From contig JWIH01000003.1 of NCBI GenBank assembly GCA_000814665.1, positions 1-61,679 of the forward strand: DNA of 61,679 nucleotides, given 5' to 3'. Positions 31,362 through 61,679 of this stretch are shown here, piece after piece (position 1 is the first letter of the stretch; the number at the start of each line of letters is the position of its first letter). Source of the DNA: Pseudoalteromonas flavipulchra NCIMB 2033 = ATCC BAA-314. Its GTDB lineage: Bacteria; Pseudomonadota; Gammaproteobacteria; Enterobacterales; Alteromonadaceae. Both the position numbers and the translations under genes were made by a program. The notes below the pieces were generated by a model. The model made no database searches. It saw nothing but the letters and a program-made list of their open reading frames with translations, and was not told the DNA's origin.

Positions 31362-32081
31362 ATGGGAAATGAAACCACCAAAGTGCTCGTAGTTGACGAC
31401 GATATGCGTTTGCGCAGTCTTTTAGAGCGTTATCTCGTAGAGCAGGGATTTATCGTCCGCAGCGCAGCCAATTCTGAACAAATGGATAGACTACTTGAAC
31501 GCGAAAACTTTCACTTGATGGTGTTAGACTTGATGCTTCCTGGAGAAGATGGCCTTTCCATTTGTCGTCGTTTAAGACAAAAAGAGAATGAGATCCCAAT
31601 TGTCATGTTGACGGCGAAAGGTGACGAAGTTGACCGTATTATTGGTCTTGAGCTTGGCGCGGATGATTACATTCCAAAGCCTTTCAACCCAAGAGAACTG
31701 TTGGCGCGAATAAAAGCCATTCTTCGTCGTCGTGCCAAAGAAGTACCAGGTGCGCCTGCGGCAGAAGAAAATGAAGTGAGCTTTGGTAACTTTACCCTTA
31801 ATTTAGCGACGCGAGAGATGCAACATGGGGAAGCGACAATTTCACTTACCTCAGGTGAGTTTGCGGTACTTAAAGCACTGGTGAGTCACCCTCGAGAGCC
31901 GCTTAGTCGAGATAAGTTAATGAACCTTGCTAGAGGGCGTGATTATAGCGCACTTGAGCGTAGCATTGACGTTCAGGTTTCGCGCTTGCGTCGTATGATT
32001 GAAGATGACGCCTCTAATCCTCGCTATATACAAACGGTGTGGGGTCTTGGGTACGTATTTGTGCCTGACGGCGTGAAGTAG
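31362..32081 (+). CDS. ompR: Response regulator OmpR
   Basis: OmpR is the DNA-binding response regulator of the EnvZ osmosensing pair, controlling outer-membrane porins. The receiver domain has [16 protein letters not shown], the phospho-acceptor Asp in [12 protein letters not shown] (about 55), [36 protein letters not shown] and a winged-helix output domain ending [11 protein letters not shown]. It has 239 residues, as in E. coli. The stop is 5 bp from envZ, a two-gene operon. Confidence 0.96.
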
Positions 32082-32086
32082 CCAGC

Positions 32087-33406
32087 ATGTTACCTCGCAG
32101 TGCATTCGGGCAAACCGTCTTCTTTGTCGGCGCGTTACTATTGATAAATCAAGTCGTGTCTTACATTACCGTTACCTTATACGTCTTCAAACCAACTTTT
32201 GAACAAGTGAACCTGATGCTTGCTAAGCAGGTTAAAACGGTTTTCATTGATTGGGAGAATGGTGTTGAAGTTGATAACAGTGTATCTCGCAAATTCTTCG
32301 AGATAACGGGTATTGAGGTGATGACGCAAAGAGAGGCCTATGTAAATGGGCTGGGGCAGGCCAAAGAATATACATTGCTGTCTCGTAGTATGTCGGATCA
32401 GCTTAATGGTTCCGCGCGAGTCAGGATAAGCCAAGGAGATCCGGTTGTTTATTGGGTCGAAGCACCGCAAGCGCCAGGGTATTGGGTAAGAGTACCGCTT
32501 AGCGGACTCAGTGAAACAAAAATGGAGTTTTTAGTTTTTTACCTCTCCAGTATTGGTTTTTTAAGTGTGTTAGGGGGGTGGCTTTTTGCTAGGCATCTCA
32601 ACAAACCGCTAAAATCGCTACAAATTGCAGCTAGTCGAGTAGGCGTCGGGGATTTTTCAACACGTCTTGTCGAAGAAGGTTCTACTGAAGTTATAGAGGT
32701 GACTCGGGCATTTAATAAAATGTCTAAGGGGATCGCAGACCTAGAAAGTGATAGGCGACTGTTAATGGCTGGTGTTTCACACGATTTACGTACACCCTTA
32801 ACCCGAATTCGTCTAGCAACTGAAATGATGTCGGATGAAGAAGACTACCTGCGCGAGGGAATAATCGACGATATTGAAGATATGAATGCGATTATAGACC
32901 AATTCATCGAATATCTCCGTCATCACAACGGTGCAGAAATGTCGGCAGATGACGTTAACACGGTTATTGAAGAAGTGGTTCATGCAGAGCAGCAACATCA
33001 GCGACCAATTCACCTGCAAGCAGAGGAATACTTACCTGCGGTGATGATGAATGCTGTTGCGTTAAAGCGGGTGTTCACTAATATGATTGAAAATGCGATC
33101 CGTTATTCTGAACAAGATATTGAGGTGACGACAGAGTACAGCCCCAAGCACCGTGCTGTTATCATAAAAGTAATGGACAGAGGGCCAGGTATCCCTGAGT
33201 CAGAGTTAGAGTCTGTATTCGAACCATTTAAACAGGGAGATCAGGCTAGAGGGAGTGAGGGGAGTGGCTTAGGGCTTGCCATTATCAAGCGTATCGTGAC
33301 CACACACGGCGGTAAAGTAAGATTGCGAAATCGAGATGGCGGTGGTCTGATCGCGGAGGTTTCTTTGCCAGCTTACCGTGGTAAACTTGAGGAAAATAAC
33401 AATTAA
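32087..33406 (+). CDS. envZ: Osmosensor histidine kinase EnvZ
   Basis: EnvZ phosphorylates and dephosphorylates OmpR. It has two membrane helices (about 9-28 and 145-166) around a ~115-residue periplasmic domain, a HAMP domain (about 167-220), DHp with [21 protein letters not shown] (His about 231), and HATPase with N box [11 protein letters not shown]1 [10 protein letters not shown] and G2 [13 protein letters not shown]. The 439 residues are close to E. coli's 450. Immediately downstream of ompR. Confidence 0.95.
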
Positions 33407-33412
33407 TAAACT

Positions 33413-33454
33413 TTAACGGCTTGAGGTATAACACTGGTTTTTCCGGGCCGTTAA
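33413..33454 (+). promoter_or_regulatory. Inverted repeat between envZ and the three-gene membrane operon
   Basis: TTAACGGC (33413-33420) and GCCGTTAA (33447-33454) form perfect 8-bp arms around 26 nt. It lies 6 bp after the envZ stop and just before the SD AAGGA (33463-33467) of the next gene. It has no T-tract. It could be an operator for the unknown operon or a weak transcript boundary. Confidence 0.35.
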
Positions 33455-33475
33455 GTAATAGTAAGGAATGCTATT

Positions 33476-34132
33476 GTGGCTATAGAAGTATCCAGCGCAC
33501 GATTGATCCCTGTTTTGAGGCGTATTGTCGCTGTCAAAAAGTTTGCCAAACTCCACCCAACGCTCATTCCCTTTATGCTCTATCTGGCCGTCAGTGGTAT
33601 CGCTCTGTTTTATGTTGCTCGTTTGCTTAATTCGTTTGGGTTTTCTGCACTGAAGCACATAGGGATAAGTGACTTTTTAACCGTGATCATGACTAATTTT
33701 TTATTTCTACCGGCATTTACTTTCGTTGTCTTCAGCTTACTCACGATAATCAGGCAAGATAAAAAGCTTGTTCAGGTTAAGTTTCTTGGCGTTGATAAGT
33801 TGAACTATATAGTTAACCAGCCACTCTATAATTTTCCACTTTCCACAACGATTATTACTACGCTTATTTTGTCTACATATGCGGCTGATTTCGCAGCAAA
33901 AAGTGCTGTAAGAGACGTAAAGGCTTTACAGCGTGGAAACACTGATATTTATTTAAGTTATCCGATAGATTGGTTTGGCGAACAAGTAATGACAATTCCT
34001 TCAGTTGTAATTGTGTTGTCGACTTCACGATATACTTTTATATATCACCCTGAAACAAAAAAGGCGGTGGCCATTCCCGATGCGAATTTAGGTAGCATTA
34101 CTACACTCTCGGCTTCAGGGGGAGGGAAATGA
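33476..34132 (+). CDS. Membrane protein of unknown function, paralogue 1 of a tandem pair
   Basis: A 218-residue protein with a GTG start and SD AAGGA. Three hydrophobic segments lie at about 29-50, 65-90 and 118-138, then a soluble C-terminal domain with a beta-rich end (LSTSRYTFIYHP). I do not recognise a family. It shares layout and scattered sequence with the next gene: LLNSFGFSALKHIGISDFL here corresponds to LFNAFSIEIIKYMELSDLL there, and RYTFIYHPETKKAVAIP to RYVFLYEKSKNRSVILS. Its stop overlaps the next start (ATGA). First of a tightly coupled three-gene operon downstream of envZ. Confidence 0.75.
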   Translation: MAIEVSSARLIPVLRRIVAVKKFAKLHPTLIPFMLYLAVSGIALFYVARLLNSFGFSALKHIGISDFLTVIMTNFLFLPAFTFVVFSLLTIIRQDKKLVQVKFLGVDKLNYIVNQPLYNFPLSTTIITTLILSTYAADFAAKSAVRDVKALQRGNTDIYLSYPIDWFGEQVMTIPSVVIVLSTSRYTFIYHPETKKAVAIPDANLGSITTLSASGGGK

Positions 34133-34803
34133 AAAAAATTACCAATGACGCTGAATATTACGCTTGGTTCGATGAAGTAAGTAAAAAGATCGCAAAATTT
34201 ATTTATGAACAACCTGGTGTTCTTATTACTTTGGGATATCTGACACTAAATTTGGCAGGCTTCGTGTATCTTACTTCTTTATTCAATGCTTTTTCTATCG
34301 AGATCATCAAATATATGGAACTTAGCGACTTATTGATGTCATTCTTGGCAGAGCCAGATATTCTTTTTGCAACATCTTGCGCAATTGCAGTGGGAGGAGG
34401 AGTGGCTTATGTAGTGAGTAAATTCGATAGAAAGCGGGCTCAGGTTAAAGAGCTTAAGGGGTGGAAAAGCTGGCTCTTGAGCCACCGTATTTTATATCGA
34501 CTCAATCCTTTCTATAGTTTAGTTGTTGTAGCTATGCTTATTTATCCAAATGCATACGCTGGACTATTGGGCTCTTGGAACGCTGAGAGTATAAAAGAAG
34601 GTAATGGTAAGCTATACAACTTCGATTTAATTAACTCGATTAGCCTTGATCAACAAAAAAGGCGTCATTTTCAAGATATGCAAATCATACTGGAGTCTGA
34701 ACGCTATGTTTTTCTCTATGAAAAATCTAAAAATCGTTCAGTGATCCTATCGAGAGATAATATCGCGAGTATTCAGATAGTTGCGCAGGGTGTGGATAAT
34801 TGA
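34129..34803 (+). CDS. Membrane protein of unknown function, paralogue 2 of a tandem pair
   Basis: A 224-residue relative of the preceding gene. An N-terminal ~30 residues of cytoplasmic type (NDAEYYAWFDEVSKKIAKFI) is followed by hydrophobic segments at about 33-55, 76-97 and 127-149, then a soluble domain ending ERYVFLYEKSKNRSVILSRDN. The shared pattern is membrane segment, F-x(6)-I-K-Y/H-x(3)-S-D-hydrophobic, membrane segments, and a terminal R-Y-x-F-x-Y strand. The divergence is large, so the duplication is old and the two probably form a hetero-oligomer (inference). It overlaps the third gene by TGATG. Confidence 0.75.
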   Translation: MKKITNDAEYYAWFDEVSKKIAKFIYEQPGVLITLGYLTLNLAGFVYLTSLFNAFSIEIIKYMELSDLLMSFLAEPDILFATSCAIAVGGGVAYVVSKFDRKRAQVKELKGWKSWLLSHRILYRLNPFYSLVVVAMLIYPNAYAGLLGSWNAESIKEGNGKLYNFDLINSISLDQQKRRHFQDMQIILESERYVFLYEKSKNRSVILSRDNIASIQIVAQGVDN

Positions 34804-35549
34804 TGCGAAGCATATCGAAGAAGGTGCCATATCGTGATTTGACCTATACCCAAAATGTTTTAACAAATGCTCAGTTGGTTCAATTAAAGTGCATCATTGC
34901 AACAAGCTTTTCCAATGTAGAGGTAGAGCATTACTTTGCACTGTACTTTGAAAAAGGTGAAAGTACAAAGCGTAGACTCCGGTTATTTTTATCAGGCGGG
35001 GATATTGTCGGCTATTGCTTATTGACCTTTGATGATAGCAACAAGGATGTATGCATTGTTGGCGCTTCAGCTGCATTTTTACCTGACTTTAGAGGGAAAA
35101 ACAGCACCTTTAGGTTTTCTCTTATAGAAGTATTAAAACGTTATATACGTAACCCACGTAGAAAACTGTTATATGCAGATACTATGCTCAGCCCCGCTAT
35201 GTTCAGGGCGATGGCAAAAAATATCGCCGAAGTTTATCCAAATAACTTACCTCAAAATAGTGCGATAGCAACGCTCTATGACACCATTAACCCGAGTGGC
35301 TTGGTAAGCCCTCATAATGGCCTAAGGTGTTTGAAGGCTGTTGGACGCAAAACCAATTACAGCGAGGCTGAAATCGCACGCTTTAGAGAAAGCAGCAAAA
35401 CTGAGATTGCACTTTACTGCAGTGTTAATCCTGACTTTGATAAGGGAATTGCGCTTGTTGTTATCATTCCTATTTCGCTTACACAATTTATCTTAACACT
35501 AAAGAAAATATTATCGAGTAGAGTATCCGGTGTGTTAGGGCGAGGATAA
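34803..35549 (+). CDS. GNAT-like acetyltransferase-fold protein with C-terminal membrane anchor
   Basis: A 248-residue protein. SGGDIVGYCLLTFDD followed by GASAAFLPDFRGKNSTFRF (about 92-105) resembles GNAT motifs: the strand, the R-G-K-N-S turn in place of Q/RxxGxG/A, then a helix. The match is partial and the acetyl-CoA loop is not canonical. A hydrophobic segment near the C-terminus (IALVVIIPISLTQFIL, about 216-232) suggests tail anchoring. An in-frame TTG one codon upstream is an alternative start. Its start overlaps the stop of the membrane gene, so all three products are made together. Substrate unknown. Confidence 0.7.
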   Translation: MRSISKKVPYRDLTYTQNVLTNAQLVQLKCIIATSFSNVEVEHYFALYFEKGESTKRRLRLFLSGGDIVGYCLLTFDDSNKDVCIVGASAAFLPDFRGKNSTFRFSLIEVLKRYIRNPRRKLLYADTMLSPAMFRAMAKNIAEVYPNNLPQNSAIATLYDTINPSGLVSPHNGLRCLKAVGRKTNYSEAEIARFRESSKTEIALYCSVNPDFDKGIALVVIIPISLTQFILTLKKILSSRVSGVLGRG

Positions 35550-35801: not shown

Positions 35802-36167
35802 ATGAATAAGCTATTACCCGCAGTTGCTTTACTTGTGGCAACTTTAACTATGAGCAATCAAGCACATGCCAATGAAAAAAATGTAACAGTTGGTGAGTTT
35901 GGCGAAATTAGTGCTAATGGAGATATTGGCACTGCATCTATGTCTATTCCAGAGTTTAAGCAGTACTTTCGGTATATTATAGACACGGACGAAGTCGCTA
36001 ATATCACTTCACAATGTCGTATCTTGACTTACGTATACCATGATATTGATTTTAATTATATATACCCTGTTGAGTTTCGAATTGAGGCATACTCAAAGAC
36101 TAAGCTTTATAAAACATATAAAGGCCAAAGAGGACGCTTTCCTTCTGAGCAACGGCTATGTAATTGA
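35802..36167 (+). CDS. Small secreted protein of unknown function
   Basis: A 121-residue protein with a clear signal peptide (MNKLLPAVALLVATLTMSNQAHA, cut after residue 23). The mature ~98-residue domain is rich in Tyr and has exactly two Cys, in SQCRIL and at the penultimate position (RLCN), which could form one disulfide. SD AAAGGAAA precedes the start. I recognise no family. The 250 bp upstream are AT-rich with no other gene; a terminator follows, so it is a single-gene unit between the three-gene membrane operon and pckA. Confidence 0.75.
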   Translation: MNKLLPAVALLVATLTMSNQAHANEKNVTVGEFGEISANGDIGTASMSIPEFKQYFRYIIDTDEVANITSQCRILTYVYHDIDFNYIYPVEFRIEAYSKTKLYKTYKGQRGRFPSEQRLCN

Positions 36168-36270: not shown

Positions 36271-37809
36271 TTAGCCGCGAGGACCTGCTGCTTTGATTGC
36301 TTCAGAAACATCGTATTTAGCGAAGTTTTCTTTGAAGTCAGCCGCAAGTTTAGCTGCATATTCCGCATACTTAGCCTGATCTTGCCATGTATTTACCGGA
36401 TTAAGTAGCTTGCTATCAACACCTTCCACTGCCACTGGTACATCTAAATTTAGTGCCTCAATGTGCTGTGTCTCAACGCCCTCTAATGTATCGTTTACGA
36501 TTGCATCAATCACGGCGCGAGTTGTTGGAATGTCAAAACGCTTACCAATGCCATAAGGGCCACCAGTCCAACCTGTGTTTACTAGGTAAACTTTAGCGCC
36601 AAACTCACGTACGCGTTTCATTAGTAGCTCAGCGTACACGCCTGCTGGACGCGGGAAGAAAGGAGCACCAAAACAAGTTGAGAAAGTTGATTCGATATCA
36701 GAGGTTGAACCAATCTCAGTTGAGCCTACTTTCGCTGTGTAGCCACTAAGGAAGTGATAAGCCGCAGCTTCTTCGCTTAGGATTGAAACTGGAGGTAATA
36801 CGCCACTCACATCACAAGTTAAGAATACAACTGCACGAGGCTCGCCCGCGCGGTTTTCAACTTTACGCTTTTCAACATGCTCAAGAGGGTAAGCTGCACG
36901 CGTATTTTGCGTTAAGCTTGAATCGGTATAGTCAGGAGTACGCGTTTCATCTAGCACGACGTTTTCTAAAATAGTACCGAAACGGATTGCATCCCAAATA
37001 ACTGGCTCGTTCTTTTGTGACAGGTCGATACATTTCGCATAACAACCGCCTTCAATGTTGAATACACTACCAGGTGCCCAACCGTGCTCATCATCACCGA
37101 TAAGAAAACGCTTAGGATCCGCAGAAAGCGTAGTTTTACCTGTTCCTGATAGACCAAAGAATAACGTTGTGTCGCCAGCTTCACCTACGTTTGCACTACA
37201 GTGCATAGGTAGCACGCCTTTTGCTGGTAGTAAGAAGTTCTGTACAGAGAACATCGACTTCTTCATTTCACCGGCGTAATGCATACCTGCGATAAGCACT
37301 TTGCGCTGTGCAAAGTTGATGATAACGGTACCATCGCTGTTTGTGCCATCACGCTCAGGATCACAAACAAAAGAAGGAACGTTCATCACCTGCCATTCAG
37401 GTAAATCAGTTTTGTTATAAGAGTTAGGTTCGATAAACATGTTTTTAGCGAAAATGTGATGCCAAGCAGTTTCAGTCGTTACAACGACTGGTAAATAGTG
37501 CTCTGGATCCGCACCGACTTCTAAGTGAGAGACGAAGTGGTCATTTTCAAGAACGTGCGCTTCTACGCGAGCCCATAAAGCATCAAACTTAGCTCCTTCG
37601 AATGGGCGGTTTACGTTACCCCATTGGATGTCATTTTCTGTGCTTGATTCTTTTACGATGAAACGGTCGTTTGGTGAACGTCCAGTACGACGACCAGTTT
37701 TTGCAACAAAAGCTCCATTTGCGGCTAAAGTGCCCTCGCCACGACGGATAGCGTGTTCGACAAGTTCAGCTGCGGTTAAATCGACAAAACGAGTAGCGCT
37801 TGAAGTCAT
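36271..37809 (-). CDS. pckA: Phosphoenolpyruvate carboxykinase (ATP)
   Basis: PckA converts oxaloacetate and ATP to phosphoenolpyruvate, CO2 and ADP, the entry step of gluconeogenesis. [14 protein letters not shown], the P-loop [16 protein letters not shown] (about 220-232), the LIGDDEHGW metal motif and [15 protein letters not shown] are all present. At 512 residues it is somewhat shorter than the E. coli enzyme because the N-terminal segment is reduced. The promoter region carries a striking paired operator (37960-38005), suggesting control by a carbon-source regulator. Confidence 0.97.
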
Positions 37810-60810: not shown

Positions 60811-61020
60811 TATGAAGCAATCATCTGTGTGGGCACTCGTACAGATTGAGTTCTAACAGCAGATTCTAGTTCGCTAGATGACACAAACAAATTTAGAGTC
60901 TCAATTGAGCTGAGTGACCAACAGAATAAACATAGTTTATTCAGCACAGTCAATTCGATACCGAAAGGTATCAAAATCAGAATTCAATGAGCACGAAACT
61001 TAGGTTTCGAAAAAACTTTT

Positions 61021-61679
<659 letters not shown>

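Follow-up and report, generated by a model that had tools for sequence, protein, structure and literature searches.

Do three tightly overlapping genes behind envZ form one system, or do they belong to separate units? The genes, here called A, B, and C, occupy the interval from envZ to pckA in a 61,679-nucleotide (nt) stretch of Pseudoalteromonas flavipulchra NCIMB 2033 (contig JWIH01000003.1; "the window" hereafter). The original prediction treated them as a single three-gene system of two paralogous membrane proteins and a tail-anchored GNAT-like protein, possibly a membrane acyl-modifying or immunity-type module. We favor a different reading, to which we give a probability of roughly 60%: C is an acyltransferase-like enzyme linked to EnvZ, and A-B is a separate, hetero-oligomeric membrane pair. 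This reading is based on computed gene structure, the paralogy of A and B, their separation into two clades, the linkage of C to envZ, and the lack of conservation of the trio, and it is firmer on anatomy than on function.

To learn how often the three genes travel together, we surveyed 108 Pseudoalteromonas genomes (L and G labels denote surveyed loci and genomes; G000 is the window's own genome). C was found in 33 genomes, the A-B pair in 7, and the full trio in 4 (G000, G046, G039, and G072), always in the envZ-pckA gap. C occurs without A-B in 29 of its 33 genomes and A-B without C in 3 of its 7, and their co-occurrence in the genus is not above chance (Fisher P = 0.20, kinship ignored). 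The trio recurs in only a handful of genomes whose flanking regions closely resemble one another (envZ, 96 to 99%) and seems to be decaying where it is present: A is apparently broken in two of the four, split in G072 by an IS3-type element (L067:5639-6855; two open reading frames [ORFs], typed by eye) that leaves B and C open, and in the draft genome G039 by an apparent frameshift. In a second lineage (G040 to G042), the A-B pair also stands beside pckA, with a 4-nt A/B overlap in two of the three; no C was found in these genomes and no envZ within the stretch fetched. Outside the genus, G185 and G202 hold both families, far apart. On the basis of the genus survey we rejected the trio as a conserved system; the neighborhood search for conserved trios that the original prediction had itself proposed found this one almost nowhere else.

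C, by comparison, has a consistent neighbor. It lies between envZ and pckA in 20 of the 33 genomes that carry it and elsewhere in 13; A-B is interposed in 4 of these 20 loci and absent from 16. In all 16, taking the end of envZ as reference, the nearest start codon of C falls between 8 nt before and 25 nt after it. In nine of them (one of which, G061, has a stop inside C), the terminal part of envZ contains a GTG start of C, and six of the other seven offer a later ATG or GTG, at 66 to 67 nt, as an alternative. Because C adjoins envZ in every locus of this kind, the positional evidence is strong that it belongs to the ompR-envZ operon of these 16 genomes, probably as its third gene. In two further Pseudoalteromonas genomes (L074 and L133), C directly follows a different and much larger gene (1324 and 1297 amino acids) that falls in the envZ cluster, which gives C a second link to a likely histidine kinase. 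When the neighbors of C were clustered over 23 loci (22 distinct, since L010 and L128 represent one contig), no fixed partner emerged; partners recur only by lineage, namely, a lipoprotein-like gene in 7 loci (the one example tested scored under the DUF4350 cutoff) and an aldo/keto-reductase-like gene (identified by eye) in 4.

EnvZ-OmpR is a model signaling pair, and both genes in the window exceed their equivalog cutoffs (Table 1), with greB, pckA, hslO, and the Hsp15 gene identified around them by NCBIfam; tex is a by-eye label that the NCBIfam scan did not confirm. The Escherichia coli gene order is also tex-greB-ompR-envZ-pckA-hslO-hslR, which places A-B-C within a single interval of an old gene block. 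Compared with the OmpR-EnvZ operon, the locus has an extra gene, C, downstream of envZ, with A-B interposed between the two in 4 genomes. The ORFs of A, B, and C and their positions in the window were confirmed, as were the overlaps on which the operon had been proposed (ATGA at the A/B junction and TGATG at the B/C junction), and we infer that the three genes are cotranscribed. A TTG one codon before the ATG of C is a possible alternative start.

The structural model of C adopts a GNAT fold with a predicted local distance difference test (pLDDT) score of 93. We assign this predicted fold with high confidence, in agreement with the GNAT-like core first proposed, and C is predicted to be an acyltransferase. 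In an alignment of the window protein with 63 of the best 120 of 170 matches, R97, at the position of the coenzyme A (CoA) pyrophosphate loop, is invariant (64/64 rows). The CoA loop of GNAT enzymes reads Q/R-x-x-G-x-G/A after strand 4, whereas C has N and T where G and G/A normally stand (wider-family consensus, R-x-G-G-N-T; window, R-G-K-N-S-T). C is 10 to 13% identical to members of the GNAT superfamily (AAC(2')-Ia, NatC, ElaA, and FeeM), from which it also differs by a C-terminal helix and by the long, predominantly helical segment that separates strands 121-128 and 216-224. No GNAT acetyltransferase model of Pfam or NCBIfam was reached; an arginyltransferase model was touched weakly by 3 of the 64 rows (best E value, 0.047). 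The C-terminal tail is hydrophobic by sequence, with a 19-residue hydropathy of up to 2.26 (stretch 215-233) and at least 1.6 in 45 of 64 rows. The model, however, forms a core strand here (pLDDT, 96 to 97) and a short helix (mean hydropathy, 0.9) with no membrane span, and the proposed tail anchor was not supported.

A and B resemble each other rather than C, to which we saw no sign of relatedness. A retrieves B within the same genome at an E value of 7 × 10−8 with 23% identity, and orthologues cross-match at 1 × 10−7 to 7 × 10−7 with A-B identities of 23 to 25%; by sequence comparison, the two are strongly diverged paralogues of an unnamed family, as had been suggested. In a tree of 27 rows (partly different from those aligned below and built without L108, L113, and the P proteins), A copies form one clade (100/100) and B copies another (100/99). 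Each clade holds members of two Pseudoalteromonas lineages, so the A-B duplication is probably older than the lineage split. The paralogous pair is supported, the hetero-oligomer of the original prediction is plausible, and A and B likely work together in this way.

Counting the window's genome in each case, a profile search of the order detected the family in 17 of 394 genomes, and a wider profile detected it in 7 of 369 genomes of the class (some matches weak or with stops). The genus accounts for 11 of 108 genomes, with 7 pairs and 4 single genes (one with an internal stop). Elsewhere in the order, beyond Pseudoalteromonas, each match is a lone gene, the surroundings vary (G159 carries two such genes, distant from each other), and no fixed partner was seen among neighbors judged by eye. 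One such lone gene, in a genome from another family of the order (G240; L099:8510-9931), lies directly upstream of a greB homologue; greB belongs to the gene block that also holds A-B in the window, a position that may be ancestral.

The common layout proposed for A and B held in part. Each protein has three hydrophobic segments, and the three helices of B are also present in its AlphaFold2 (AF2) model; the third segment of A is weak (hydropathy, 1.22, lower than that of a barrel stretch, 1.42). The shared loop motif is present in both proteins but reads K-x4-S-D, and only its D, together with one tyrosine, is invariant across 27 aligned family members. Likewise, RY-x-F-x-Y occurs in both, not at the terminus but 27 to 28 residues before it, within the barrel in the B model. 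The loop between the second and third transmembrane (TM) segments of B is basic, and a rule-based reading of charges places the barrel outside in 27/27 members. A and B are thus predicted, from charges, to be inner membrane proteins with an N-in/C-out topology and a periplasmic barrel. We have moderate confidence that the C-terminal part of B, as modeled, is a small SH3/Sm-like β-barrel and that A has the same by homology. Some of the 27 aligned rows start at an inner codon; left out were G202, G483 (a weak match), G013 (stop in frame), the A genes of G039 (frameshift) and G072 (insertion), and near-copies, L062 and L064 among them.

The five-stranded barrel in the B model is the possible link of the family to small-barrel folds (Sm/Hfq, SH3, and the MscS β domain); it superposes on several Hfq chains over 52 to 53 residues at 2.5 to 2.8 Å. 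In contrast to these folds, the A/B barrel is anchored by three predicted TM helices and is predicted to lie outside the cytoplasm. An Hfq profile (13 of 25 loci; L171 and L190, read in a wrong frame, are among those left out) matched the A/B family with an hhalign probability of 6.8%, the aligned columns being the barrel, and we rejected Hfq homology on this weak comparison. Across the 27 members, the best single-member E values were 0.0042 in Pfam (among 25 of 30 families listed) and 0.0019 in NCBIfam, each from one member only and with families varying between members, which, for A and B, leaves standing the earlier remark that no described system is known. Solved structures searched by sequence gave nothing below an E value of 0.35 for C or the A/B family, B had no match in a viral structure library at 10−3, and searches of Pfam, NCBIfam, PADLOC, and PHROGs gave nothing convincing for A, B, C, or D (the next small gene after C).

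Ratios of nonsynonymous to synonymous substitution rates (dN/dS) are 0.06 for A (from a single comparison whose dS approached saturation), 0.06 and 0.14 for B, and 0.14 to 0.19 for C; other comparisons were saturated. Between the window and L003, protein identity is 67% for B and 70% for C versus 97% for envZ and 98% for pckA, while proportions of synonymous differences (pS) are 0.80 for envZ, 0.71 for A, 0.65 for B, and 0.78 for C. A, B, and C thus appear to be under constraint while evolving faster than the genes around them. The G+C content of B (0.372) is the lowest of 49 window ORFs of at least 170 amino acids (overall, 0.428), a value that would be compatible with acquisition from another source, though not proof of it.

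Table 1. Features of the ompR-envZ locus in the window
Feature	Positions	Strand	Evidence or remark
ompR, response regulator	31362..32081	+	NCBIfam OmpR equivalog, 451.9 bits (cutoff, 331)
envZ, sensor histidine kinase	32087..33406	+	NCBIfam EnvZ equivalog, 575.2 bits (cutoff, 415)
envZ-to-A gap, 69 nt	33407..33475	+	AAGGA precedes GTG start of A; no promoter- or terminator-like site reported
Gene A, 218 amino acids, GTG start	33476..34132	+	ORF; hydropathy; family alignment; barrel by homology with B
Gene B, 224 amino acids, paralogue of A	34129..34803	+	ORF; sequence comparison; AF2 model
Membrane part of B	34213..34596	+	AF2: predicted helices 29-53, 76-106, 127-156; much of 105-125 at pLDDT <50
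Small β-barrel of B, residues 162-217, predicted periplasmic	34612..34779	+	Model; fold comparison; charges
Gene C, 248 amino acids from ATG, GNAT fold	34803..35549	+	ORF; predicted structure
CoA pyrophosphate loop position in C, R97-G-K-N-S-T102	35091..35108	+	Alignments; between strand 83-92 and helix 102-116
C-terminal core strand 216-224 and helix 226-246 of C	35448..35540	+	Model; formerly read as anchor
pckA, convergent flank	36271..37809	-	NCBIfam phosphoenolpyruvate carboxykinase

Beyond C, gene D (35802-36167; 121 amino acids, with an apparent signal peptide by eye) is 99% identical in L001 and 88% in L003; its distribution is patchy, and it was not found in the C-pckA interval of L002 or L009. 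The window begins with the end of a large-subunit rRNA gene and a 5S rRNA gene (1-1011) and closes with the start of a small-subunit rRNA gene (61020-61679); with rRNA at both ends, the contig seems to span the interval from one rRNA operon to the next.

Could the three genes nevertheless form one dedicated membrane acyl-modifying module, in which C acylates A, B, or a substrate presented or exported by A-B? The tight overlaps in the window suggest it, as does the closeness of B and C in two other loci, with an 8-nt gap in L003 and a 1-nt overlap in L009. The survey argues the other way, given the rarity of the trio, the apparent damage to A in half of its carriers, the frequency with which each unit occurs without the other, and the separation of the two families in G185 and G202, and we consider such a module unlikely. 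An anti-phage or toxin-immunity cassette would account for the patchy distribution and for the divergence of B and C beside nearly identical flanking proteins. Against it, the best PADLOC match of the trio was A at a chance-level E value of 0.27, B and C had none at 10, and 0 of 27 A/B-family members matched at 0.1; neighbors of C and of the A/B family, viewed by eye and not scanned, look unrelated to defense, and dN/dS is low where computable. We regard this part of the original prediction as very improbable.

Two alternatives concern the parts rather than the whole. A and B might be reduced MscS-like channels, since MscS likewise has three helices followed by an Sm-type β domain. That domain is cytoplasmic in MscS, however, while the charge rule would put the A/B barrel outside; the hhalign probability against 10 MscS relatives (of 30) was 0.7%, and no MscS family appeared for the 27 members among the Pfam families listed. 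We rejected this channel identity, again on a weak profile comparison, and now hold it to be very improbable. C could instead be an N-acyltransferase of the FeeM kind, which would use acyl-acyl carrier protein to make an N-acyl signal or lipid. FeeM is among the structural relatives of C, but it stands within 1 Z unit of aminoglycoside and protein N-acetyltransferases, and a common fold does not reveal the substrate; this more specific role for C is quite doubtful.

Under the reading we favor, an EnvZ-linked enzyme and a separate membrane pair, A-B-C would form the tail of the ompR-envZ locus. OmpR, EnvZ, and C would be made together, and C may act as a cytoplasmic output enzyme of osmotic or envelope signaling that transfers an acetyl or acyl group to a small molecule or protein. 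A and B may assemble via their barrels and helices, probably into a structural or sensing membrane complex. The pair would have been gained or kept between envZ and C, having joined the operon in one lineage or been lost from relatives, and would not have become obligatory to C. A bolder version has A and B taking alternate places in a periplasmic, Sm-type hetero-ring anchored in the membrane, which tunes the neighboring EnvZ sensor, and C serving as the chemical output arm of the same operon. It strikes us as highly unlikely; if true, it would add an acyltransferase and a periplasmic Lsm-like ring to the OmpR-EnvZ system.

Among the matches listed from the open-licence literature, we found neither an acetyltransferase in a Pseudoalteromonas ompR-envZ operon nor a periplasmic Sm-like membrane family. 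For annotation, the practical consequence is that the trio should not be recorded as a system. The A/B family represents an unnamed membrane architecture, three helices followed by a predicted periplasmic small barrel. In several families of the order it occurs as a lone gene, and here it is split into two partners, which makes A/B well suited to the study of how a hetero-oligomer might arise from a homo-oligomer. For the genus, a gene with an enzyme fold that overlaps the end of envZ in some of its members would be a candidate for signaling output through chemistry rather than gene expression.
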